Shown here piece by piece: positions 1 to 36,284 of a DNA stretch of 39,332 bases. The notes beneath the pieces were generated by a model. The model saw nothing but the letters and a program-made list of their open reading frames with translations. It ran no database searches and had not been told where the DNA came from. A program made the translations under genes and the position numbers. The stretch is from NCBI GenBank assembly GCA_903929475.1, contig CAIYUV010000041.1:1-39332 (forward strand), given 5' to 3'. Origin of the DNA: an uncultured Spartobacteria bacterium (lineage in GTDB: Bacteria > Verrucomicrobiota > Verrucomicrobiia > Chthoniobacterales > Chthoniobacteraceae). The stretch's first letter is position 1. Each line of letters starts with the position of its first letter.

Positions 1-27
1 GCCTTGGCGGCTTGGCGCGAGGCCCAT

Positions 28-109
28 CCCGTCAATCCTGCAAATCCTGTGAATCCTGTCCAAAAAGAGAGACAGGAGTTTCGGGATTTTATGGATGAAC
101 GGGATTGCG
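28..109. repeat. Palindromic interspersed repeat, copy 1
   Basis: An imperfect palindrome of about 82 bp. The outer arms read CCCGTCAATCC and GGATGAACGGGAT. The inner arms are AATCCTGTC (52-60) and GACAGGAGT (71-79), around a short A-rich loop. Related copies lie at 6121-6157 (right arm only) and 6642-6724. The repeated AATCCTG words give the copy a modular look. It resembles small non-autonomous palindromic elements (REP or MITE type), but no transposase is visible here. Confidence 0.7.
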
Positions 110-273
110 CGTTGCGGCGGCGGGCGCGGGCCGGCCTTTAGGTGATTCATAGCCTTCCCGCGCTTGTGGTGAACCGGTGATGCGGCATTTTCCACCATGA
201 AGGGCAGGAAGGGCTTGAAGGGGGTGAAAGGGGCGGTCTTCAGAGAAAAGGGCCATTTTTCCAGTTTTTATTG

Positions 274-483
274 GATTGCGTCCCACAGGCGGGAGATTGC
301 GTGACACACATGGGGGACTGCGTGCCACAGGCGGGGGACTGCGTGCCACAGGCGGGGGACTACGTGCCACACGTGGGGGACTGCGTGCCACACGTGGGGG
401 ACTGCGTCGCTGAGGGCGGGGACTGCGTCGCTGAGGGCGGGGACTGTGTCGCTGAGGGCGGGGGTTGTGTCGGGGGAGGTTGA
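274..483. repeat. Tandem array A, 21-bp unit, about 10 units
   Basis: Ten consecutive 21-bp units start at 274, 295, 316, 337, 358, 379, 400, 421, 442 and 463. Most begin GACTGCGTG or GACTGCGTC and end in a G-run. Three sub-types follow one another: CCACAGGC, CCACACGT and CGCTGAGGGC cores. The phase is exact, with no indel. Because 21 is a multiple of three, several frames stay open across the array, so open frames here are not evidence of a gene. I see no coding signal. The array lies downstream of the minus-strand SGNH hydrolase gene at 1150-1863. Confidence 0.9.
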
Positions 484-543
484 AGCCGGCTTTCGCGCTT
501 TGGACTTCGGTTTTCGGGCCTCTCGGCGGTAGCCTTCGCTGAA

Positions 544-963
544 AAAGGGGCGCTCTTCTCTGTTGGAGGGCTTTCCCCACTTCTTGCGGGGGCGTCCCCG
601 TTTGAAAAGGGGGCTCCCCCTTTTCAAATGGTTGCGTCCAAACTTCCGGCGGGGTCGTCCAAACTCCGCGCGGGGGCGTCCACTTTGGAAAAGGGGGCGT
701 CCCCTTTGCTTGCGGGGGCGTCCCCTTTGGTCGCGGGGTGGCCCCCTTGGGGCGCGGGGGCGTCCACTTTGATTCGGGGGTGCCCCCTTTTGCTGCGGGG
801 GCTCCCCCTTTTCTCGCGGGTGCGTCCAAACTCCGCGCGGGGTCGCTACCTTTTCGCGCGGGGGCGTCCCCTTTTGGCGCGGGGGCGTCCAAGAACGGCG
901 CGGGGAAGCCCCCTTTTGGCGCGCGGTCGTCAAATCTTGGCGTGGGTAAGCCCCCATCTCTCG
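544..963. repeat. Tandem array B, degenerate 21-bp unit, about 20 units
   Basis: About twenty degenerate 21-bp units run without phase slip. Starts can be placed every 21 bases at 544, 565, 586, 607, 628, 649, 670 and on to 943. The common core is GCGGGGGCGTCC followed by a variable half such as CCTTTTG, ACTTTGG or AAACTCC. GC-rich and T-rich halves alternate once per unit. Long open frames cross the array on both strands and in several phases, as expected for any stop-free 21-bp unit. None shows a convincing start or known domain, so I do not call a gene. Confidence 0.88.
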
Positions 964-1149
964 CCAGTTCATCCACACGGATGTGCCGAGAAGGAGCGAG
1001 GGAATGAAGGTTTGGCGCGATGGTCGGGGGGAATGCGTGCTAGGGGGCGCGGGCGAGGTAGCCTTCATGTAGATGACGGGGAAATGCGCCGTCATCGTTT
1101 CAGCGATTGACTTTGCGGCGCTGGGAAAGCGGGGCGTTGCCGGCGGGGG
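964..1149. other. Non-coding spacer with a hairpin at 1072-1096
   Basis: Between array B and the stop codon of the SGNH hydrolase gene there is no supported gene. An 8-bp stem, GATGACGG (1072-1079) with CCGTCATC (1089-1096), encloses a 9-base loop. It lies about 55 bases past the stop of the minus-strand gene. No T-run follows on the minus strand, so it is a weak terminator candidate at best. Confidence 0.4.
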
Positions 1150-1863
1150 TTACTTTGCCCAGCTTTTCTGGGCGATTTCGATTTGGGCGGGGGTGAGGCC
1201 CATCCCACGGAGCACGCCGGTGGCCATCATTTCGTTGCCAAGGGTGCCCATGTGGACGCCGTCGTAGGTGTAGTATTTGTCCTTCCTCTCGGCTCCGAGC
1301 TTGGCGAGCCCGGCCTGCATGTCGGCGTTGAGATCCGCGAGGAGGCAGTTCTTTTCCTTGGCCAGCGTGCGGAGAAAATCATTGTAGGCGACGAGCTTTT
1401 GGTTGTTCTCGTTGGACTGGTCTTCGTTGATCATGGTGGAGGTGAGGATGACCACTTTGATGTAGGCGGCCTGCGCTTTGTCCACGATTTTGGTGATGTT
1501 CTCCTTGTATTTGTCGAGCGGCACTCCGTTGACCCCGTGCCAGACATCGTTGACGCCGCAACTCAGTGTCATCCACTCGGGTTTCTTGCTGATGACGTCG
1601 CGGTCCACGCGGGCGAGCATGTCGTTGGATTTGTGCCCGCTTCTCCCCGCGGGGATGGCGATGGCCTTCACCCCGTTGGCTTCGAGTCCCTTCATCACCA
1701 ACGTCACATAGCCATGCGGCCCCACTCCCAGCTCGGTGATGGAGTCTCCGAGAAAGGCAATCTTTTGACCTTCTGAGACGGGAAACTGTGGCGGTGTGAT
1801 GGGGCTTCCCGTCGCCAGCCCCATGGCGAGGACGGCGAGAACGGTTTGCAGGATGATTTTCAT
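1150..1863 (-). CDS. Secreted SGNH/GDSL-family hydrolase
   Basis: A 237-residue exported protein. Residues 1-20 form a typical signal peptide with a hydrophobic core. All four SGNH blocks are visible. GDSIT (39-43) carries the likely nucleophile Ser41. AGRSGH (72-77) is the oxyanion Gly block. GVND (103-106) holds Asn105. DGVH (201-204) supplies the Asp/His pair. The family hydrolyses esters, often acetyl groups on carbohydrates, or acts as a lipase or esterase; the substrate cannot be told from sequence. The length fits a single-domain family member. The ATG start is chosen because the signal peptide begins there. It is divergent from the CotH-family gene and has no obvious operon partner. 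Confidence 0.88.
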   Translation of the reverse strand: MKIILQTVLAVLAMGLATGSPITPPQFPVSEGQKIAFLGDSITELGVGPHGYVTLVMKGLEANGVKAIAIPAGRSGHKSNDMLARVDRDVISKKPEWMTLSCGVNDVWHGVNGVPLDKYKENITKIVDKAQAAYIKVVILTSTMINEDQSNENNQKLVAYNDFLRTLAKEKNCLLADLNADMQAGLAKLGAERKDKYYTYDGVHMGTLGNEMMATGVLRGMGLTPAQIEIAQKSWAK

Positions 1864-2179
1864 GGCGTTGATGATTTTCGGAAAAAGGATTACTCGTCAG
1901 CCTGGCCATTGCCAAGCAGCACAACGGCCCGGCTGCTACACGACTCCCACATTGTTTGAAAGAACTCATGCTCTTGGCGGACTATGCAGCCCATCGTTGG
2001 CATTTGCCGGCAAACGAAAATGCGCTCGTCACTCCCGCCTTCACGCCCGACATTTCCACCCACAAACGATGAAGCATTTTCACCCGGAAAAGAAACGTGG
2101 GGACACAAAGCATGTGCTTTTTCCAAGCGCGCAAAATGAAACATCAGCGGCGCCCGCCGTTGTTGTCCCCTCCGCTTTT
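1864..2179. other. Divergent intergenic region between SGNH and CotH-family genes
   Basis: 316 bp separate the starts of two divergent genes, so promoters for both should lie here. I see no strong sigma-70 pair, operator palindrome or small gene. An open frame of the CotH-type gene runs backward through it, but the added N-terminal residues are not protein-like and would precede a clear signal peptide. Confidence 0.4.
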
Positions 2180-3364
2180 ATGAGCACGCTCTATCGCAGG
2201 CTTTGTCTGATTGTTTTTTCAATGTTGTTCGCTGCGTCATTGACCAGCATCTCATTCGCAGGGAAGGCGGACGAATCCAGCGCGGCTTTCTTTAAGGACA
2301 AAAATATCCCCCACCTCGAAATCACTTTGGAAGCGCCAGCGGATGGTGGCAGCCCGTTCGCCGCCCTGTCCAAAGCTCCGCGCAAATACGTCAAGGCCAC
2401 GCTCACTGAGGGCGGCACTGTTTATCCGGATGTCGGCGTTCATCTGCGGGGCGGGGCGAGCTTTCGCAAGATAGACGCGAAGGCCGGTCTCACGTTCAAC
2501 ATGAGTAAATTCGAAGCGGGGAAAACCTTTCATGGCATGGATAAATTTCACCTGTGCAACTCCGTGCAGGATTCCTCCTACCTCTGCGAGTTGCTTGGGA
2601 GCGAATTGTTCCTTTCGGCAGGCGTTCCGGTTGCGCGGATTCATCACGTGACTGTGAGCATCAACGGGCAGATGCGCGGCCTCTATTATTTGAAGGAGGG
2701 CTACGACAAATATTTTTTGAAACGCCATTTCAAAAACGCCGACGGCAACTTCTATGACGGCGGTTTCCTGCACGATGTGAATCTGGGCATCACACTGGTG
2801 CGAACCAAGGCGGACGTGAAAAACTGGAACGATCTCCGCGCGCTGAACGCCGCCTCGCACGAGCGGGACTTGGAAAAGCGATTTGAGAAGTTCGAGAAGC
2901 TCCTCGACATGGATGAGTTCATCAGCGCCGCCGTCGTGTCGGCCATCATCTGGGACTGGGACGGCTATATGTTCAACGCCAACAATTATCGGCTCTACCA
3001 CAACCCGAAGCTGGACAAGGTCACCTTCATTCCCTCGGGCTTCGATCAAATCTTCGGCAACTCCGGCAACCTGCTCAACCGCACCATCGGGCCACCCACG
3101 CAAGGCCTCGTCGCTCGTGCCGTCTTCCAAACTCCCGAGGGGCGCGCGCGATATTTCAAACGCATGGCGGAAATCAACAAAACGATGATGGACCCCGAAA
3201 AATGGAGCAAACGGATTGATGAACTTGCCGCCTGCGTCGAACCGGAACTCACGAAAGTGGATCCGAAAGCCGGTGCGGATTACGCAAACCAACTCAAACG
3301 CATCCGCGAGTTTTTCGCAGACCGGCAAAAGGGCGTTGAACAACAACTCGAAACTGCAAAGTAA
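2180..3364 (+). CDS. Exported CotH-family protein (CotH kinase-like fold)
   Basis: A 394-residue protein with an N-terminal signal peptide (about residues 1-25, core LIVFSMLFAASL). It resembles the CotH family, named from Bacillus spore-coat protein H, a secreted atypical protein kinase. Supporting segments are a VHLRGG-type block near residue 90, GLYYLKEGYDK in the middle and an acidic catalytic-type stretch DWDGYMFNANNY followed by GFDQIFG. Outside spore formers, these proteins are common in surface-decorating or polymer-associated loci. The substrate is unknown. The ATG at 2180 is preferred over an in-frame extension to 1796 because it places a signal peptide first. The gene converges on gyrA with a 153-bp gap, in which I see no clear terminator. 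Confidence 0.8.
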   Translation: MSTLYRRLCLIVFSMLFAASLTSISFAGKADESSAAFFKDKNIPHLEITLEAPADGGSPFAALSKAPRKYVKATLTEGGTVYPDVGVHLRGGASFRKIDAKAGLTFNMSKFEAGKTFHGMDKFHLCNSVQDSSYLCELLGSELFLSAGVPVARIHHVTVSINGQMRGLYYLKEGYDKYFLKRHFKNADGNFYDGGFLHDVNLGITLVRTKADVKNWNDLRALNAASHERDLEKRFEKFEKLLDMDEFISAAVVSAIIWDWDGYMFNANNYRLYHNPKLDKVTFIPSGFDQIFGNSGNLLNRTIGPPTQGLVARAVFQTPEGRARYFKRMAEINKTMMDPEKWSKRIDELAACVEPELTKVDPKAGADYANQLKRIREFFADRQKGVEQQLETAK

Positions 3365-3517
3365 CTGAAGCTGTCCCAAACGGCACCCAATGATACTCCG
3401 ACATCGTCATGATGTATTTCCTGTCTTGTCCGTGTTCTTCGTGAGCGTGACCAATCGGCACGATTCCACAGAGCGAAGCAGACAGCAGCCTCATATTGTG
3501 CTCTCGTGGTCCCAGCG

Positions 3518-6085
3518 CTAAGCCTCGGCCTCGGGGGTTGGTTCTTCCTCGGCGTCGGCGACGACGGGGGCGATGGCTTGGAGTTTCTCGGCGCCTTTGA
3601 GGTCCATGAGTTTCACGCCCATCGTGTTTCTTCCGCATTCGCGGATTTCACTCACACGGGTGCGCACCATCTGGCCTTTGTTGGTGATGAGCATCAGTTC
3701 GTCGCTCTCACGCACGGTGAGCGCGCCGACGACGTTGCCGGTCTTGTCGCCGGTCTTCATCGTGATGATGCCCTTGCCGCCGCGCGACTGCACGCGGTAG
3801 TCCTCGAACGGCGTGCGCTTGCCGATGCCGTTCTCGCCCGCGACGAGCAGGCGGGATTCGTTGTCCACGAGCGCCGCGCCGATGACGAAGTCGCCTTTGT
3901 CGGGCCGAATTCCCCAAACACCGATGCTGTTGCGGCCCTGGTCGCGCATTTCTTCCTCGTTGAAACGTATGCTCATGCCGTCGTGGGTCACGAGCACGAT
4001 TTCGTTCGTGCCGTTCGTCAGCTTGCAATCAATCAGCTCGTCATCCTTCTCGATCTGGATCGCGATGATGCCGCCTTTGCGGATGTTTTTGAAATCGCCA
4101 AGGTTTGTCTTTTTCACGATGCCGCTCTTCGTCGCGAAGACGATGAAGAGCTTGTCCGACCACGTCTCCTCGTCGGTCTTCTGGCCTTGCACGCGGATGG
4201 TGGCGGCGATCTTTTCCTCACCGCGAAGTTCCAGCAGGTTCGCGATGCTGCGGCCTTTGCTGGCACGGCTGCCCTCGGGAATTTCATACACGCGCTCGAC
4301 GTAGCAGCGTCCGCTCTTGGTGAAAAAGACGAGGTAGTCGTGCGTGGTGGCGGTGAAGAGATGCTCGACGAAATCGTCGTCGTCCTCCTCGGTCGCGCCT
4401 TCGCGGGTGATCATTCCCTTCACGCCCTTGCCCCCGCGGCGCTGCGCGCGATACGCGGAGACTGCGGTGCGTTTGATGAAGCCGCCGTGCGTGATGGTGA
4501 TGATGCAGCCTTCGTTGGCGATGAGGTCCTCGATGTTGATTTCGCCTTCGTCGGGGACGATCTGTGTCTTGCGCTCGTTGCCGTATTTTTCGCGGATGAC
4601 GGCGAGTTCCTCTTTGATGATGGTGAAGACGCGCGCTTCCTTCGCGAGAATGTCGAGCAGGTCTTTGATCGTCTCCAGCAGCGCGTCGTATTCGGTCTTG
4701 ATGGCTTCGCGTTCGAGGCCGGTCAATTGGTAGAGGCGCAGGTCGAGGATGGCGTTGCTCTGCCGCTCGTTGAATTTGTATTTGCCGTCCACCATGCGCG
4801 CGCCGTCGCGGATGAGGATGCCGATTTTCTCCACGCTGCTCTTGGTCCATGCCAGTGCCATGAGTTTCGCTCGGGCGTCGTCGCGGTCCTGCGAGTCGCG
4901 GATGATTTTGATGAAGTCATCGAGGTTGTTCAGCGCGATGAGCAGGGCTTCGAGACGCTCGGCGTGTGACTCCGCTTCGCGCAGGAGGAAGCGCGTGCGA
5001 CGCAGCACGACATCACGACGATGCTCAATGTAGCAACCGATGGCGTCCTTGAGCGAAAGCAGCTTCGGCTTGCCGCGATCAATCGCGAGCATCGCGGCGG
5101 AGAATGACGATTCGAGCGCGGTGTGCTTGAAGAGGTTATTGATAACAACCTTCGGGTTCGCGTCGCGCTTGAGGTCAATGACTACGCGCGTCTGCTCGTC
5201 CGATTCATCGCGGATCGCGCTGATGTCGGTGATGACTTTTTCATTCACCAGATCGGCAATGCGCTCGACGAGCACCGCGCGGTTCACGTTGTAGGGAATC
5301 TCGGAAATGATGAGCTGTTCGCGTCCGCCTTTCACCTCGGCGACGCCGATTTTTCCGCGCACACGCACCGCGCCTTTGCCGGTGTGAAAATACGATTTAA
5401 TCCCCGAGGAACCGAGGATTTCGCAGCCCGTCGGGAAGTCCGGACCTTTGACGAATTTCATCAGTCCTTCGATGGTGATGTCCGGGTCGTCAATCTGCGC
5501 GCACACGCCGTCAATTACTTCGGTGAGATTGTGCGGGGGCATGTTCGTCGCCATGCCGACGGCGATGCCGGTGCCGCCATTCACGAGGAGATTTGGGAAG
5601 GCTGCCGGAAGCACTGTCGGTTCCTGCCGCGTCTCGTCGTAGTTGGGCACGAAGTCCACGGTGTCCTTGTCCATGTCCTCCATCAGCGCCGCGCCGAGGT
5701 GCTGCAAACGCGCCTCGGTGTAACGCATGGAAGCTGGCGGGTCGCCCTCGACGCTGCCAAAGTTCCCCTGCCCCTCGATGAGCATTTCGCGCATCGCCCA
5801 ATGCTGCGCCATGTGGACGAGCGTCGGGTAAATCGCCTGGTCGCCGTGCGGATGGTAGTTACCCATCGTCTCGCCGACGATCTTCGCGCACTTGAGCGGC
5901 TTGCGCGAAGGCCCCACGCCCAGTTCGGACATGGCGAAAAGAATGCGCCGTTGCGAAGGTTTCAACCCATCGCGGGCATCGGGCAGCGCGCGGGAAATGA
6001 TGACGGACATCGAGTAGTCGAGAAACGACTTCGACATCTCCTCGGCGACATTGATTGGCAGGACTTTTTCGTTTTGGTGATACAT
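3518..6085 (-). CDS. gyrA: DNA gyrase subunit A
   Basis: 855 residues, the usual GyrA length. GyrA cleaves and religates DNA in the A2B2 gyrase, which introduces negative supercoils using ATP hydrolysed by GyrB. The catalytic tyrosine is Tyr122 in ASMRYTEARL. The breakage-reunion core (about 1-490) is followed by the beta-pinwheel C-terminal domain. This carries the GyrA-box (QRRGGKG), needed for DNA wrapping, and a second box-like QSRGGKG repeat. The tail is acidic (EEEPTPEAEA). In the quinolone region the sequence is HPHGDQAIYP, so the positions equal to E. coli Ser83 and Asp87 are Gln83 and Pro87. It lies downstream of gyrB on the same strand, with mrr-like and GxxExxY genes between. No Shine-Dalgarno sequence is seen before the ATG. 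Confidence 0.98.
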   Translation of the reverse strand: MYHQNEKVLPINVAEEMSKSFLDYSMSVIISRALPDARDGLKPSQRRILFAMSELGVGPSRKPLKCAKIVGETMGNYHPHGDQAIYPTLVHMAQHWAMREMLIEGQGNFGSVEGDPPASMRYTEARLQHLGAALMEDMDKDTVDFVPNYDETRQEPTVLPAAFPNLLVNGGTGIAVGMATNMPPHNLTEVIDGVCAQIDDPDITIEGLMKFVKGPDFPTGCEILGSSGIKSYFHTGKGAVRVRGKIGVAEVKGGREQLIISEIPYNVNRAVLVERIADLVNEKVITDISAIRDESDEQTRVVIDLKRDANPKVVINNLFKHTALESSFSAAMLAIDRGKPKLLSLKDAIGCYIEHRRDVVLRRTRFLLREAESHAERLEALLIALNNLDDFIKIIRDSQDRDDARAKLMALAWTKSSVEKIGILIRDGARMVDGKYKFNERQSNAILDLRLYQLTGLEREAIKTEYDALLETIKDLLDILAKEARVFTIIKEELAVIREKYGNERKTQIVPDEGEINIEDLIANEGCIITITHGGFIKRTAVSAYRAQRRGGKGVKGMITREGATEEDDDDFVEHLFTATTHDYLVFFTKSGRCYVERVYEIPEGSRASKGRSIANLLELRGEEKIAATIRVQGQKTDEETWSDKLFIVFATKSGIVKKTNLGDFKNIRKGGIIAIQIEKDDELIDCKLTNGTNEIVLVTHDGMSIRFNEEEMRDQGRNSIGVWGIRPDKGDFVIGAALVDNESRLLVAGENGIGKRTPFEDYRVQSRGGKGIITMKTGDKTGNVVGALTVRESDELMLITNKGQMVRTRVSEIRECGRNTMGVKLMDLKGAEKLQAIAPVVADAEEEPTPEAEA

Positions 6086-29370: not shown

Positions 29371-32300
29371 TCAGGGCACCCATGCGGTGACGATGCCCTT
29401 CGTATTGTCGGTGAAGACCGCGAGCGCTGCGTAGCCGCTTGCGAAATTCGCGGAGTGGCACTGCCCTATCGAGCCGAGGACGGCACCGAGCATGGTGAAT
29501 GATTTGATGGTCTTCGTCGCCCCGCTCACTTGCACGGTCGCGCCCTTGCGTATAGCGAGGTAGAGCGTGCCATTGCTGCCCTCGGCCCACAGGCCCGTGT
29601 CATTGGCGCCGGTGACGACGCCTTTTTGCGGCTTGAGCGTGGCGACGAATGCGACGCCGTCGTTGCCGCTGCCCGTCCATGCAAAGGATTTAAAGAGATT
29701 GAAAGCGGCTCCGTTTGTGCCGGGTGCTGTAAATCCTTTGCGAGCCAGGATTCCGAGTGATCCGGCCGGATTGACCCGCCAGAGAATTGTGTCACTTGCA
29801 GAAGTTACGCCGCCGAGTTTTGGCAGCAGCTTGCTGATAAATGCGACACGGTTGGAAACTCCACCCACGGAGTCGCTGAAGCTGCCATACGCAGCGCCGC
29901 CGAGGTTCTGTATCGTCCTCCCTTCACGTGCGGTGACGCTGAGCACGCCTGCCGCGCTGCGCGAAAGAATCACGCTGTCGCTGGCGGCGGGCGCGACGAT
30001 TTTCGCCTGCACAGTGATGCTGCCGTCGTCGGAAAACGTGGGCAAATTGAACGACGCGACGGGCGTGCCGATTTCCGGAACGCCGATGCCGGTGCGCAAA
30101 ATCGTGTCCTTGCTTCCATCGCTGTTGACTCGGATGAGGGCCGAGCTTTTGTCGGTGAAACTGACACGTGCGAGCGCGGCGCCGGTATTGTTAAAGCCGC
30201 GCCGCTGATCGAGCGTGCCAGTGCCACCGGGACCGAAGACAACGAAAGTTTTTACCGTTTTCAAAGAACCCGCGACATTGATCTGGCTGCCGTTCCGCAT
30301 GAGAAGCGCGACGCTGCCCGTGCCGTCCTCGCGCCAGAGTGTAAAGCTGCTGGCGGCGGTGACTCCGCCTTTGCCGGGCGCGAGGTTGGTAGTGAAAATC
30401 ACCCGTCCGTCGTCCGGCAGTGCGATGTCGAGGAACTTGGAAAATTGCGCCCCTGCAATGCCCGGGGCATTTCCCTGTGTCCGCGCCACGAGACGCATCG
30501 CGTTTCCGTCGTGCGCCCAGATTCCATCGCCCGTGCCCTTCGGGGCAGCGAGGAGGCTGCCCGCGAAGGCAATGTCACCGACGGAACTGACGATGGGGTT
30601 GCCGAATTTGGAAAAATTCAGCGTGGTTCCCGCTGCGGGGCTTCCTTCGTGGACGAGCATGGCGGGCGCGTCCCCGAAGAAAATGCCACTGTGCATTTTT
30701 TTGTCGGGTGAACGATACGTCGCGCTGAACGCGGTGCGGCCATTCGCAGTGATGGACGGCTGTCCTATATTTTGAAATACCGCGCCCGCAGGTTCGCCGG
30801 GGACCGCGCCATTTTTTGAAACAATGCCATAGGCGGCGGGCTGCGTGATGCGGACGGTGACGTGACCGACGGCTGTGGTGTTCACCGCGTTCTTCACGGT
30901 GTAGGTGAAGGTATCGCTGTCGAAAAAATTCGCGCCGGGTGTGTATGTAACCTGGGTCTTGTCCGCGCTGATGGCGACGGTGCCGCGTGCGCCGTCGGTT
31001 ACGGAAACGATGGTGAGCCGCGGGGCTGCGTCGGGATCGCTGTCATTGGCCAGCACGCTGGCGGCGACGCCGGGGGCGATGGTATCGTCATGGGTGATGA
31101 TCGGATCGGCGACAGGCGCAATGTTGATCGAGACGGTCGAGGGGGAGGAGAAGCCGTAGCCGTCGTAGACATTGAAAGTGAAAGAATCCCCTCCATTATA
31201 ATTAGAGGCAGGCGTGTAGGTGAGATTCGGCGCAGTGCCGCTGAGCATTCCGTGCGCGGGCTGGGTGACGACGCTGAAAGTAAGCGTGTCGTTGTCGCCG
31301 TCCACGCCGCCCAGCGTAATGCTGGTAGGCACATCCTCATCCATGTTGACGGTCTGCGGGGTTGCCGTCGGCGCTATGTTCAGCGTGAGGACGGCGTCAT
31401 TGCTGGTGACGGGCGTGACGCCATTGCTGATGACGACTTTATAAGCGCCGAGATCGCCATTCGTGATGGAAGCGATGTCGTAGGAAGACGAGGTGGCGTT
31501 GTTGATCGGCGCATTGTCCTTGAACCATTGGTAGGTGTAGGCGCCGGGAGTCTGGAGTGCGACGGTGAATGTGACCGGCTGGCCGAGATTGTTGTGCTGG
31601 CTCTTCGGCTGCGTGGCGATGACGGCGGGCGGGAAGTTCGTGATAAATTGCAGCTCGGTGCCAGTGATGGAAAACGCGCCGGTGACTCCGCTGGCGAGAT
31701 TCGTCGCAGTGAAGTCAGCGTCAGAAAAATTCGTCGAGCCGAACGTCGCCAGCGTGTAGGTGCGGCCTGCTTCGCCGCCGCCGCCGAAATCAAAAACCCA
31801 CGTGCCGCTGGCTGGGGATTTTTCAAATAAACCGGAGCCCAGATCGAGCATGTCCGACTGGCCGCTGGCTCCGAGATCAAATTTTGCCACGGCACCACTG
31901 CGCCACAGCAGGCTGCTGGCCGAAAGAATACCGATGTCATTCACGCCCGGCTGAAGATTCGAGCCCGATTCGAGGACGATGGCATCCAGCGAACCGTCAC
32001 CCGCGAGCGTGGATCCGTTTTTTACAATCGTGGCAAATGAAGATGAGTTGTCCGTGGTGACGAGCAGCGTGCCCTCCTCGATGATGGTTGCGCCGAGGTA
32101 GGTGTTGCCGCTGACGCTCGCAAGTTCGAGTGTTCCATCGCCGGTTTTCAGCAGATCATTGTAGGCATTTCCGGAGACGACGCCGGTGATGCGGGCGCTG
32201 TCGGCGGTCGAACCCGGGTTGTCCACGACGCGGATTTCGCGTGCGTTGTAAGTCGTTAAAGCAACGCTCCCGGCGGACACCACGTCCGTGAGTGAAAGAT

Positions 32301-34644
32301 TATCGCTCCATGTGACGCGATGGGTCGCCGTCTTGCTGCCGAAAATGAGCGCGTGCCCGGCGCGGACAAAACCTACGTCCTCCCATTGAATATTCGTCGA
32401 CCCCGGACCGTTGAAGTCGAGCGTCACGTCAGCTCCGTATGCCGCAAGACCGCCGCTGCCCCTGTCCACGCTGACCTGGACGTTTGATGCCGTGGTCGCA
32501 TCGAAGACGACTCCGGACCAGTTGAGTGAGTTCGCGCCGAAGCTGATGCTTCGGCTGAAAGTTCCACCGCCCGCGATTTCGAGCGTGCCTCCGCGCAGAC
32601 GGATTTCATTCGACGGCAAGCTTGCACCGGGTGTCGCACGCACGATGCCTTCGTTGATCACAACAGGATTCGGCAGCGAGGCGTTGCCCGCGTGGGTGAG
32701 CACGAGCGTGCCCGCACCGCTTTTTACGACCGGCTGGCCGGCTGCGTTCTGAACGAGGCTTGCGCTTACGGTGAGGGTTGCCTTTTCCACATGGAAAAAA
32801 CGAGCGCTTCCGCCTGCGATTCCCCCGGTGCTGCTTGCAGCAATCGTGTAATCCGTCGCACCCGCGAGCAGAAAAGCGGTGCAGGCAAGGTCCCCGGCTC
32901 CCGCGATGGTGAGCGACTGACCGGGGGCGCCCGGAACGATGCGTATCGAATTCACCGCGAAAGCCGCCACGGGAGTGGTTGCATTTCCAGTGATCAGCGC
33001 GTTGGCATTGGCATCCAAGCTCGAACTCCACGCGGAAGTTGCCACGGCTTTCACCCCGGATGTGTTGTCGTAAGTGGCGAAGCCGGTGCTGTTGACTGTT
33101 GCCCATCCGGTGGAGGCCGTGCCCGAGGTTGCGTTGAGCAGACCACCCGGATTCAGCGGCACGAAGAAGGCACCGTTGCTCAGAAAAATGTGCGGGTTGT
33201 TGCCTGTATTTCCGAGCGTCAGCGGGTTGCCCGCTCCGTCACAGGCGCTGAAGTCCACGGTCGAGAATTGTTGCAGCGTGCTTTGGTCACGGGAGTAGGA
33301 TTGGAAGCGCAAGTCCGTGGATGCCGTGCCGCCCGCATTGTGCGTGACAGAAATGTTGAGATGCCCCGAGCGCGGGTTGCTCTCCGTTCCGCCGGTCAAT
33401 TTCGCATTCAAAGAGCCGAGTTGCAGACGCCCGGTCACTTCACTCGATCCGGATGTGTTGCCGATAAGATTCAGCGTGCCGCCGCCGATGCTTTCCATCC
33501 CCGAGCTGCTCGGCGACCCGTCGCGCAGACGCCCGCTCCCCGCTACGTTGTTCGCCGTGTTGTCGAGAATGAACGTGCCTCCATTGAAAATGATCGCGCC
33601 ATTCGTCACCTGGCTCGCGATGCTCGCGCTGCCCGCAAGCTTCAGCGTGGCACCGCGCCCGACGGCCACATCCTTGTAAATGCTCACCGTTCCGCTCAGC
33701 GTCTGCGTGCCCGTCCCGCGCACAGCGAGTTTTCCCGAGTCATTCCCCGCGCCGTAAGGCCCCGGCAGCGTCAGCGCACCGTCAAACACTCCGCTCGATT
33801 GCGAATCCGAGAGCGCCGTGATCACAATATCGTAGTTGTCTATCGCCTGCGTGCCCGTGCCCACGGCCGTCGCCAGCACAGTGCCCGACCCGCTCAGCGT
33901 CCCGATGCGCAGCGATGTGTCGTAAGCACCGGTCTGGTCTCCGTTGTCGCGCTTAATCGTCAGCACCGCCCCCGCATTGAGAATCACCGGATTGGCCCGC
34001 AACGCCGTCGAACCAGACTGCGCGTTGTTATTAAAACGCACCGTCCCTCCGACCGCCTGCAAACGCCCGACCCACCGGTTGTCCGAAGAAGCAATCGTCG
34101 CCGGCAGCACCGGCAGCGTCCCGAAACGCAGCGTCGAACTCCCCGTCTTGAAAACATCCCCGAAACTCGTCACACCCCCATTCAGCGTCACCGTCCCCGT
34201 CCCGTTCCCTCCCACCGCCAGCGTCGCATCGTTCCCGAACTCCACCGGCGTGTTCATAGTCACACTCCCCGTGTCATTCACCATAATCTGCGAAATCGCG
34301 CTCATAAAACGCAGCCCGTTCCCCGTAATCAAATGACTGGCCCCCGACGCCCCCGCGTCCGTCGCAGTAATAATGAGCTGATCCAGTTCAAAAGGCACCG
34401 CCGCGACATCATTCGTCGCCGTGTAAGGCAGCGCCACACTCCCGCCAAAAGTCAGTGTATCCATCGCATCCAACCCTCCCGGAGCCGCACCTCCCCAGTT
34501 CGCGCCATTGCTCCACGCCCCCGTCACATTGCCCCACGTATAATTCCCCGCGCGCACCGTGCCGCACAAGGCAAACAACACCACCCCCGTCACAAGCGCC
34601 AGCAGTCGAAAACGGAGAGATTTACAGGAAATCGTGGGAATCAT
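29371..34644 (-). CDS. Giant exported protein with autotransporter-type beta-strand repeats, Ig-like, cadherin-like and propeller-like regions
   Basis: 1757 residues from the chosen ATG. A signal peptide (LLALVTGVVLFALCGTVRAG) comes first. Residues about 30-1000 are a glycine/threonine-rich beta-helix with passenger repeats (for example KTGDGTLELASVSGNTYLGA and VKSGAGTLVLTHAGN). About 1001-1088 is an Ig-like domain (YTYQWFKDNAPINNATSSS). About 1088-1265 holds two cadherin-like/Ig-type repeats (TLTFSVVTQPAHGMLSG, SVLANDSDPDAAPRL). About 1268-1757 has repeated strands of the kind FSKFG-DDGRVIF-GGVTAASSFTLW-LLMRNG, suggesting a propeller. There is no C-terminal translocator barrel or sorting motif. 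It is a likely surface or secreted adhesion or polymer-binding protein. A start at 34758 is possible but lacks a clean signal peptide. Confidence 0.82.
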   Translation of the reverse strand: MIPTISCKSLRFRLLALVTGVVLFALCGTVRAGNYTWGNVTGAWSNGANWGGAAPGGLDAMDTLTFGGSVALPYTATNDVAAVPFELDQLIITATDAGASGASHLITGNGLRFMSAISQIMVNDTGSVTMNTPVEFGNDATLAVGGNGTGTVTLNGGVTSFGDVFKTGSSTLRFGTLPVLPATIASSDNRWVGRLQAVGGTVRFNNNAQSGSTALRANPVILNAGAVLTIKRDNGDQTGAYDTSLRIGTLSGSGTVLATAVGTGTQAIDNYDIVITALSDSQSSGVFDGALTLPGPYGAGNDSGKLAVRGTGTQTLSGTVSIYKDVAVGRGATLKLAGSASIASQVTNGAIIFNGGTFILDNTANNVAGSGRLRDGSPSSSGMESIGGGTLNLIGNTSGSSEVTGRLQLGSLNAKLTGGTESNPRSGHLNISVTHNAGGTASTDLRFQSYSRDQSTLQQFSTVDFSACDGAGNPLTLGNTGNNPHIFLSNGAFFVPLNPGGLLNATSGTASTGWATVNSTGFATYDNTSGVKAVATSAWSSSLDANANALITGNATTPVAAFAVNSIRIVPGAPGQSLTIAGAGDLACTAFLLAGATDYTIAASSTGGIAGGSARFFHVEKATLTVSASLVQNAAGQPVVKSGAGTLVLTHAGNASLPNPVVINEGIVRATPGASLPSNEIRLRGGTLEIAGGGTFSRSISFGANSLNWSGVVFDATTASNVQVSVDRGSGGLAAYGADVTLDFNGPGSTNIQWEDVGFVRAGHALIFGSKTATHRVTWSDNLSLTDVVSAGSVALTTYNAREIRVVDNPGSTADSARITGVVSGNAYNDLLKTGDGTLELASVSGNTYLGATIIEEGTLLVTTDNSSSFATIVKNGSTLAGDGSLDAIVLESGSNLQPGVNDIGILSASSLLWRSGAVAKFDLGASGQSDMLDLGSGLFEKSPASGTWVFDFGGGGEAGRTYTLATFGSTNFSDADFTATNLASGVTGAFSITGTELQFITNFPPAVIATQPKSQHNNLGQPVTFTVALQTPGAYTYQWFKDNAPINNATSSSYDIASITNGDLGAYKVVISNGVTPVTSNDAVLTLNIAPTATPQTVNMDEDVPTSITLGGVDGDNDTLTFSVVTQPAHGMLSGTAPNLTYTPASNYNGGDSFTFNVYDGYGFSSPSTVSINIAPVADPIITHDDTIAPGVAASVLANDSDPDAAPRLTIVSVTDGARGTVAISADKTQVTYTPGANFFDSDTFTYTVKNAVNTTAVGHVTVRITQPAAYGIVSKNGAVPGEPAGAVFQNIGQPSITANGRTAFSATYRSPDKKMHSGIFFGDAPAMLVHEGSPAAGTTLNFSKFGNPIVSSVGDIAFAGSLLAAPKGTGDGIWAHDGNAMRLVARTQGNAPGIAGAQFSKFLDIALPDDGRVIFTTNLAPGKGGVTAASSFTLWREDGTGSVALLMRNGSQINVAGSLKTVKTFVVFGPGGTGTLDQRRGFNNTGAALARVSFTDKSSALIRVNSDGSKDTILRTGIGVPEIGTPVASFNLPTFSDDGSITVQAKIVAPAASDSVILSRSAAGVLSVTAREGRTIQNLGGAAYGSFSDSVGGVSNRVAFISKLLPKLGGVTSASDTILWRVNPAGSLGILARKGFTAPGTNGAAFNLFKSFAWTGSGNDGVAFVATLKPQKGVVTGANDTGLWAEGSNGTLYLAIRKGATVQVSGATKTIKSFTMLGAVLGSIGQCHSANFASGYAALAVFTDNTKGIVTAWVP

Positions 34645-34929
34645 ACGGGAAAAGAACAGCACCAATAGTGCAATATTAAGAATTGGCAGCAAAAAGATGC
34701 CACAAATCTCCATGAAAACATCCTCATCCGCCCCTCGGATGCGGCCGAAGACTGCCACTCGAACCGCTCAACTCTGCGCACCCGCACCTGCGGCGGCGGC
34801 GGTGTGAAAGGCGGAAGGGCACTTGTGAATCGTGATTGGTGACTGGTGAATGGCAGGGAAGCCGCCTCCGGGAAAGAGCCCGTCCATCCCCGTCCATAAA
34901 GACCATCCCGTCCCCAGAGCCACCCCGCC
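34645..34929. other. Leader region upstream of the giant surface-protein gene
   Basis: The sequence between the surface-protein ATG and array C holds no supported gene. It includes a possible N-terminal extension of the surface protein (to 34758) and a run of C/G-poor and C-rich segments. I see no clear promoter pair or terminator. A promoter for the surface-protein gene should be here or within the array. Confidence 0.35.
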
Positions 34930-35202
34930 AGCCGACAGAGAGCCCTCTCTGACGTGAGCGAGACCCTCTCTGACGCGAGCGAGACCTTCTCTGACGCGAG
35001 CGAGACCTTCTCTGACGCGAGCGAGACCTTCTCTGACGTGAGCGAGACCTTCTCTGACGCGAGCGAGACCTTCTCTGATTCGAGCAATGCGACCACTTGT
35101 CAGACCAGTGGGGCCGATTGTCCGGGCAATGGGGCATCTTGTCCGACCAGATGCGCATATTGCCCGGCCAGACGGGCATCTTTCCCGCTTTCACGGGGGG
35201 TG
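34930..35202. repeat. Tandem array C, 21-bp units of two kinds in one phase
   Basis: Thirteen 21-bp units are placed at 34930, 34951, 34972, 34993, 35014, 35035, 35056, 35077, 35098, 35119, 35140, 35161 and 35182. The first seven carry GAGCGAGACC and TTCTCT cores, several identical. The last five have a different core (TGTCCG.CCAG or GGGCA) but keep the same 21-base register. No spacer sequences separate units. The array ends 8 bases from the stop codon of the minus-strand gene 35211-36284 and lies upstream of the surface-protein gene. Open frames through it are a by-product of the period. Confidence 0.9.
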
Positions 35203-35210
35203 CTCCAGAG

Positions 35211-36284
35211 TCAGGGCGCGCTCGTGCGGGGGACGGCGGGAGGGACGGGCGATGGAGCCGCTACTCCAGGGGCGGAGGGCGGGGGCGGGAGTGCCGGGGT
35301 TTTGACGAGTTCCTCAAGCTGGGATGCCCACGATTGTGCCTCGGGGTGATGTGGGAAGGATTTCAGCACGTTGAACATTTCGCCGATGGCACGGTTGCGG
35401 AGGCCGAGAAGCAGAACGTCCTGTGCGCGCGCCCAGAATAGCGCCGGACGTTTCACCTGCGTCCATTCGCGCTGTTCGATTTCGAGTTTGCGCTCTGCGG
35501 CAGCGTCGGTTTCGCGCTTGATCTTCATTTCCCAGTATTCAAGCAGCCGTGGGTCCCTGGTGGCGCGGAATTGTGGAAGAATGACGGCCTGGTAAATCCC
35601 CTCCAGATTTCCCGGCGTCATTTCCCATGCAGAAGGCCCGCCTTTTTTCTTCCCGCTGTCATATTCACTGAGCAATTCGCCGAGCTGCAGCCAGCGGGCT
35701 ACGGGACTTTCCGTGATGGGTGTGCGCAGCAACTGCTCGTGCATTCGCTTCACGGCGGATTCCTCAATGACCTGTTTTTGCATCGGGCCTCCGCGCTCGT
35801 GTTCCTTTTTGATTTGGTCGTCGAGGCGGTCTGCCGCCGCTTGGTCCAATTGGAGTTGCTTGGTGTATTCGATGACTTGCGGCAGCAGTTGCTTCACCTC
35901 GACGCCGTTGGAATGCTGGAGCGCAAGCGTGAGCCATTGCAGATGCAGCTTCACTGCGTTTCCGCACAATTTGTTTCCCAGCGCCTCTCCCTCCGCTTCC
36001 TTCCAGTTGTGCATCGCCGTGCCTTCGTTCTTCACACCGTCGAACTGCACCGCCTTCACGGCCTCTTTCCAAAATGCCACAGCCTTCTCTGCGCTCTGCG
36101 ATGCGGCGGAAACCTGGGCGAGCACCTGACTGCGGTGGTTTTTGATCCCCGTTTCGTTGATTTCACGGATTTGTTTGAGAGACTGCAAAATCTGTCCCGA
36201 ATCCAAGGGCGGGACGTCACTGACTTGCGCGAGAGCCTGTGATGCGAATACGGTGATCGTGGCGAGGAGGATCTTTTTTTTCAT
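35211..36284 (-). CDS. Exported protein of unknown function
   Basis: 357 residues. A signal peptide (ILLATITVFASQALA) is followed by a helical, charged body with leucine- and glutamine-rich helices. Examples are LQSLKQIREINETG, QVIEYTKQLQLDQAAADRL and ERKLEIEQREWTQVK. The last 30 residues are Pro/Ala/Val-rich (LPPPPSAPGVAAPSPVPP) and look like a linker or tail. I do not recognise a domain. The middle holds many Trp-containing helices, so a helical-repeat scaffold is possible. Downstream, the stop codon lies 8 bases from array C. Upstream, the ybeY stop is 63 bases away on the same strand. Confidence 0.65.
   Translation of the reverse strand: MKKKILLATITVFASQALAQVSDVPPLDSGQILQSLKQIREINETGIKNHRSQVLAQVSAASQSAEKAVAFWKEAVKAVQFDGVKNEGTAMHNWKEAEGEALGNKLCGNAVKLHLQWLTLALQHSNGVEVKQLLPQVIEYTKQLQLDQAAADRLDDQIKKEHERGGPMQKQVIEESAVKRMHEQLLRTPITESPVARWLQLGELLSEYDSGKKKGGPSAWEMTPGNLEGIYQAVILPQFRATRDPRLLEYWEMKIKRETDAAAERKLEIEQREWTQVKRPALFWARAQDVLLLGLRNRAIGEMFNVLKSFPHHPEAQSWASQLEELVKTPALPPPPSAPGVAAPSPVPPAVPRTSAP

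Follow-up and report, generated by a model that had tools for sequence, protein, structure and literature searches.

Iteron arrays, which serve plasmid replication and partition, are helically phased direct repeats of ~20-22 bp located beside a gene, with conserved spacing and a sequence specific to each replicon. The arrays analyzed here resemble them in that tandem units of constant length follow one another in helical phase beside a gene. They differ in that they are chromosomal, occur in many copies per genome and in some cases stand alone, and in that no Rep or partition protein was found; the F1 protein encoded beside some of them is acidic and carries an FN3-like part.

Dispersed intergenic palindromes, in part linked to a gene family that the genome also carries, likewise characterize the REP/BIME and RAYT system (PMC3733652). 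The units reported here, however, form regular 21-bp tandem arrays with no fixed tag (GTAG in 1/27 and CGTC in 8/27 of the arrays linked to the F1 and F2 families), F1 lacks a Y1/HUH domain and Y1_Tnp counts track neither F1 nor the arrays. Identity with REP/RAYT was rejected on the evidence of tags and transposase. Bacterial minisatellites and VNTRs are also non-coding repeats in tandem, frequently located at the ends of contigs, whereas these arrays present one period over unrelated sequences, dyad symmetry and a link to one gene family. The repeats described in PMC2996958 share the palindromic nature of the units, but are coding.

No named family had been recognized by the first-pass annotation, in agreement with searches of sequence libraries and of the open-access full-text literature, in which no description of such arrays was found. 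Rfam covariance models matched only two tRNAs in the whole window, and no PADLOC model for anti-phage defence matched the array-linked F1 gene. Judged by these absent matches in the libraries and open-access text searched, the array class appears to be new in kind.

Composition and setting of arrays A, B and C

The window, that is, the entire stretch of 39,332 nucleotides analyzed here, belongs to a 4.5-Mb draft genome in 295 contigs, which a GyrA comparison groups with metagenome assemblies of Chthoniobacteraceae/Spartobacteria. Among named records, Chthoniobacteraceae bacterium RH-23may17-247 is the nearest, with 99% identity in GyrA and ~92-94% in the DNA of most shared core genes. Matches to the terminal motif described below coincide place by place between this record and the sister species G007, indicating that G007 is the RH-23may17-247 assembly. 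The arrays and their neighbors are located in the window as follows:

274 to 483, minus strand: array A, period 21, with units of two families (TRF, unit listing)
548 to 568, minus strand: terminal motif CTCCAACAGAGAAGAGCGCCC, 21 bp long (pattern search of the genome)
589 to 966, minus strand: array B, period 21, sharing the register of the terminal motif (TRF, unit listing)
1150 to 1863, minus strand: SGNH/GDSL hydrolase, exported, with ~184 bp between its 3' end and array B
29371 to 34758, minus strand: large exported cadherin/Ig/PATR autotransporter-like protein, 5' end towards array C at 185 bp
34943 to 35089, minus strand: array C, type-1 part, seven units of period 21, the last a hybrid (TRF, units written out)
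35090 to 35194, minus strand: array C, type-2 part, five units in the same 21-bp register (TRF, unit listing, lag-21 identity)
35211 to 36284, minus strand: gene X, exported protein of 357 aa, 3' end towards array C

Array C (34943-35194) comprises seven near-identical 21-bp units of the CCTTCTCTGACGCGAGCGAGA type, followed in a single register by five units of different sequence, of the GGGCATCTTGTCCGACCAGAT type. TRF returned period 21 at 34938-35085 (7.0 copies, 94% match) and at 35134-35187 (78% match). The hybrid unit at 35069 ends in GAGCAATG and the type-2 unit 42 bp further ends in GGGCAATG, so that the register is common to both parts. Identity at lag 21 was 0.98 over 84 bp and 0.70 for the five divergent units alone, compared with a maximum of 0.49 in 200 shuffles, which places the periodicity of array C far above chance. 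Two unit sequences in one 21-bp register, as the first-pass annotation had read this array, are thus confirmed by TRF, unit listing and lag-21 identity, and TRF also bears out its observation that all three arrays share period 21 despite their different units. In the minus-strand reading, each type-1 unit contains the core-like TCAGAGAAG or a close variant, a sequence that resembles the terminal motif.

The stop of gene X at 35211 lies 16 bases past the last unit of array C. Conservation of array C at the orthologous place was considered and rejected: it was not found after gene X in G007, and in most relatives gene X is followed by a ClpS-like gene (identified by eye from the DNA) that does not follow it in this genome or in G007. 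A tRNA-like sequence (by eye, with a GAA anticodon) lies directly after gene X in G007 (L036), where this genome has array C.

Arrays A and B, for which TRF gave periods of 21/42/63 at 273-472 and 634-955, respectively, form one composite in which array B is followed by the conserved 21-bp terminal motif (548-568, minus strand) and then by array A. This end motif, also written CTCCAACAGAGAAGARCGCCC, is in register with the arrays and has 38 matches in the genome with up to three mismatches, versus none for the reversed pattern. Nearly all these matches present a period-21 array on their 5' side, usually ending 20-60 bp away, and the same arrangement was detected in G007 and at three loci of the more distant G001. 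Many arrays in this genome are paralogous and share the end motif, which is one-sided, and the blocks of common flank at array loci stop abruptly. At least one orthologous array has retained its position, its size and its sequence from one species to another (93% over 1.6 kb). Synteny with G007 ends just beyond gyrA (window 3523), and the part of the window containing arrays A and B (1-3522) was not found at that place in G007. A dispersed element with the core CCGACAGAGAGAACGCGCC...TATACGACTGG, similar to the end motif but with no adjoining array, occurs in G006 and G001 (L228, L231, L232 and L234).

Conservation of period and symmetry across unrelated units

Ungapped self-alignment, run at all lags between 5 and 130, was used to detect tandem arrays in ~1.2 Mb of sequence drawn from seven genomes of the genus (order Chthoniobacterales), and in stretches of eight other genomes. 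Array frequencies hence refer to sampled stretches of draft assemblies, the split into intergenic and coding arrays rests on gene calls made with a simple hexamer model, and counts of arrays and of F1 copies, being related by duplication, are not fully independent. Within the genus sample, 27 of the 37 intergenic arrays had a period of 21, 42, 63 or 84, as did none of the 31 coding arrays. The proposal that these arrays have their period in common, rather than their sequence, is upheld by this result, and the spread over many period lengths that would have made the agreement a coincidence was not observed in these samples.

Neighboring units differ on average at 5.9 of 21 positions (2,064 differences), with no slips; since those units had been gathered in phase, a lag map with no phase assumption provides the fair test for slippage. 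In this map, 332 windows at motif loci peaked at 21 (212) or 42 (120) and nine elsewhere, and no lag of 20 or 22 bp was detected. Turnover of sequence in the absence of such slips is the pattern expected from selection on length. Upstream of an F2 gene in G014 lies an array of period 22 (L216:13258-13459); the period may correspond to a pair of helical turns and not strictly to 21 bp. Two neighboring arrays with different units occur in G003 (L097:8516-8998), the second of which conserves a junction palindrome (AAAGCATGTGCTTT-like) while its spacers vary freely.

Watson-Crick covariation over 293 distinct register-aligned units is concentrated along a single axis (i+j = 12 mod 21) that is locked to the register of the motif; its mean excess is 0.098, versus -0.03 to 0.06 at other axes; a second group of arrays (L132, L137, L144 and L154) favors axis 14. 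The same columns hold different palindromes in each array, such as TGGACGTCCA, GTGGACTTCCAC, AATAACGTTATT and GGAATGTTCC. For the 27 F1/F2-linked arrays, most of which have unrelated units, the combined permutation p-value for palindromy is ~4e-22. About half of the single arrays do not fall below 0.05 individually, and array C, which is not linked to F1 or F2, is one of these (p=0.67). Among the strongest stem pairs of the group A arrays of this genome, G-T and A-C mismatches each occur at about one third of the expected frequency, a depletion absent in the second group, and no excess of G-U is seen on the gene strand of F1-linked arrays. The lack of tolerance for G-U pairs suggests that the symmetry is a property of the DNA. 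The units are non-coding: substitutions are evenly distributed over codon positions (688/691/662) and no common frame is open in all arrays, with some arrays open in one frame.

Orientation relative to flanking genes is mixed. Arrays B and C had been described as lying just past the 3' ends of genes, which holds for C next to gene X, but not for B, located ~184 bp past the SGNH hydrolase stop at 1150. A general preference for the 3' ends of genes encoding exported proteins is contradicted by the survey, in which 5' and 3' ends face arrays in a ratio of ~20:18 and the 26 motif-bearing arrays show mixed orientation.

Association with the F1 and F2 gene families

The one strong positional rule that emerged, opposite to that preference, is the presence of arrays upstream of the start of F1 and F2 genes. 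F1 was first noticed as a recurrent 233-aa gene beside several arrays when the array loci of this genome (G000) and G007 were compared, and protein searches then identified it in 8 of the 9 genus genomes searched. Both families encode proteins of ~210-235 aa with a helical part and an FN3-like part. In all 23 testable genus members of F1, the best periodicity in the 600 bp upstream was a multiple of 21, and the same was true of both F1 genes in a distant subdivision-3 assembly (L298). Considering F1 and F2 together, 27 of 28 genes present an upstream array of such a period and the 28th a 22-bp array, at distances of 50-550 bp, compared with 19 of 768 control genes (2.5%). Sixteen F1 genes, the orthologues among which are not independent, were found by protein search alone, and all have an upstream period-21 array, indicating that the linkage does not stem from the way in which F1 came to light.

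The linkage is asymmetric. Only a minority of the arrays in this genome adjoin F1 or F2 (~5/26 motif loci and 1/11 randomly sampled loci), and none of arrays A, B and C lies beside such a gene. Outside the genus, arrays with period 21n were detected in 4 of 6 F1-rich samples, two of which are the same genome (G016/L252), versus 0 of 30 samples with few or no F1 genes (Fisher p = 0.00025). With the genus included, 32 arrays were found in F1-rich genomes, versus none in 0.83 Mb of F1-free Verrucomicrobiota. An even draw of 195 genomes from the phylum yielded F1 in only four, including this genome and one outside its class, which points to a patchy distribution of the module.

F1 returned no Pfam, PADLOC or PHROG match and no convincing relative in the PDB, and was not found in plasmids, phages, viral contigs or, by sequence, the PDB. 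It presents no recognizable DNA-binding domain and no transposase or nuclease signature. F2 matches the Pfam fn3 domain and was not found in plasmids or viral contigs, and Pfam detected no Rep initiator or partition DNA-binding domain in either family. A low-confidence model of F1 (from a two-sequence alignment, pLDDT 43.5, used solely for the order of secondary structure) predicts five helices followed by seven strands. Paralogues of F1 that are ~70% identical in protein usually have unrelated array units, with the closest pairs retaining related ones. Strict co-evolution of F1 with its own array was rejected, given the weak correlation between their sequences (rho 0.16), which counts against specific recognition by F1. 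Because the protein is also acidic (pI 5.8), F1 itself is a weak candidate for a putative array-binding protein.

Membrane-anchored leucine-rich-repeat proteins, with repeats of 23 aa (69 bp), also recur beside period-21 arrays in this genome and in G007 (L150:667-1641, L135:2-514, L066:1737-3167, L088:383-1219, L331 and L337). Coding repeats of 126 bp, corresponding to 42-residue TPR units similar to kinesin light chain, were observed in this genome at L026:482-945 and L029:3516-4248.

Interpretation of the arrays

Arrays A, B and C are best explained as belonging to a class of tandem, non-coding arrays with a fixed period of 21 bp and a tendency to dyad symmetry in each unit. A length of 21 bp corresponds to two turns of B-DNA. 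We propose, with a probability of roughly 0.45, that these arrays consist of dyad-symmetric DNA sites set out in helical phase, with some arrays tied to F1/F2 and others, A, B and C among them, occurring on their own. Each array would constitute a series of palindromic sites of ~10-12 bp separated by ~9 variable bp, along which dimers of a putative DNA-binding protein could sit on one face of the DNA and build up a nucleoprotein platform. In front of F1 genes, the array might act as an enhancer- or operator-like regulatory element, and elsewhere, as in this window, dispersed copies of it may be present. More broadly, the data lean towards a new bacterial module, shared by distantly related Verrucomicrobiota, in which a helical-plus-FN3-like gene family lies behind a "sequence-free" array conserved only in its two-turn period and dyad symmetry, with stand-alone arrays as well.

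The strongest alternative, although a less likely one, is a selfish or mobile satellite in which array and F1 make up an autonomous unit, with lone arrays (A, B and C, for example) as its non-autonomous copies; the palindromes and the period would be required by the copying machinery, and no host function would be involved. The asymmetry of the linkage, in which an array accompanies almost all F1 genes and an F1 gene only a minority of arrays, fits this alternative, as do the multicopy, patchy distribution of F1, the absence of array C after gene X in G007, and the one-sided end motif and abruptly ending flank blocks. Against it stand the lack of a transposase or nuclease signature in F1, the array conserved between species in place, size and sequence, and the behavior of Y1 transposases, which are absent altogether from a genome with ten F1 genes and an array.

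Ordinary slippage minisatellites that inherited their period from one ancestral array are considerably less plausible. The paralogy of many arrays in this genome, their common end motif and the stability that orthologous arrays can show would agree with such an origin, but complete turnover of sequence with no phase slips requires a constraint on length, symmetry is kept in unrelated units, and period-21 arrays appear again upstream of F1 in the distant subdivision-3 genome; the linkage to F1 would also go unexplained. Transcribed arrays operating as rows of RNA hairpins, in the role of leader, terminator or stabilizer, are less probable still: the units are hairpin-capable and located in the leaders or promoters of F1, yet G-U pairs are tolerated on neither strand, no gene-orientation rule applies, a two-turn period would be no requirement for RNA function and Rfam families in the window are limited to the two tRNAs. 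Coding heptapeptide repeats, for which 21 bp as seven codons and the arrays open in one frame could be invoked, are already refuted for most arrays by the codon-position and reading-frame evidence, and true coding arrays in the genomes sampled use other multiples of 3, never 21.

Under the proposed reading as phased, dyad-symmetric DNA sites, selection would act on spacing and symmetry while leaving the letters free, which is unusual in bacteria and suggests either recognition of DNA geometry or many private pairs of protein and site. The location of these arrays between the genes of a lake bacterium and before nearly every F1 points to an undescribed system of DNA control or mobile elements, and provides the unannotated F1 family with a testable partner. 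The arrays are also a likely reason why assemblies of these genomes are broken into hundreds of contigs, several having a start or an end within such an array. At one contig end (L027:1-121) we observed a perfect heptamer array (ACCAGTC x17), 7 being a divisor of 21, and further 7-bp arrays occur in G024, G003 and elsewhere.
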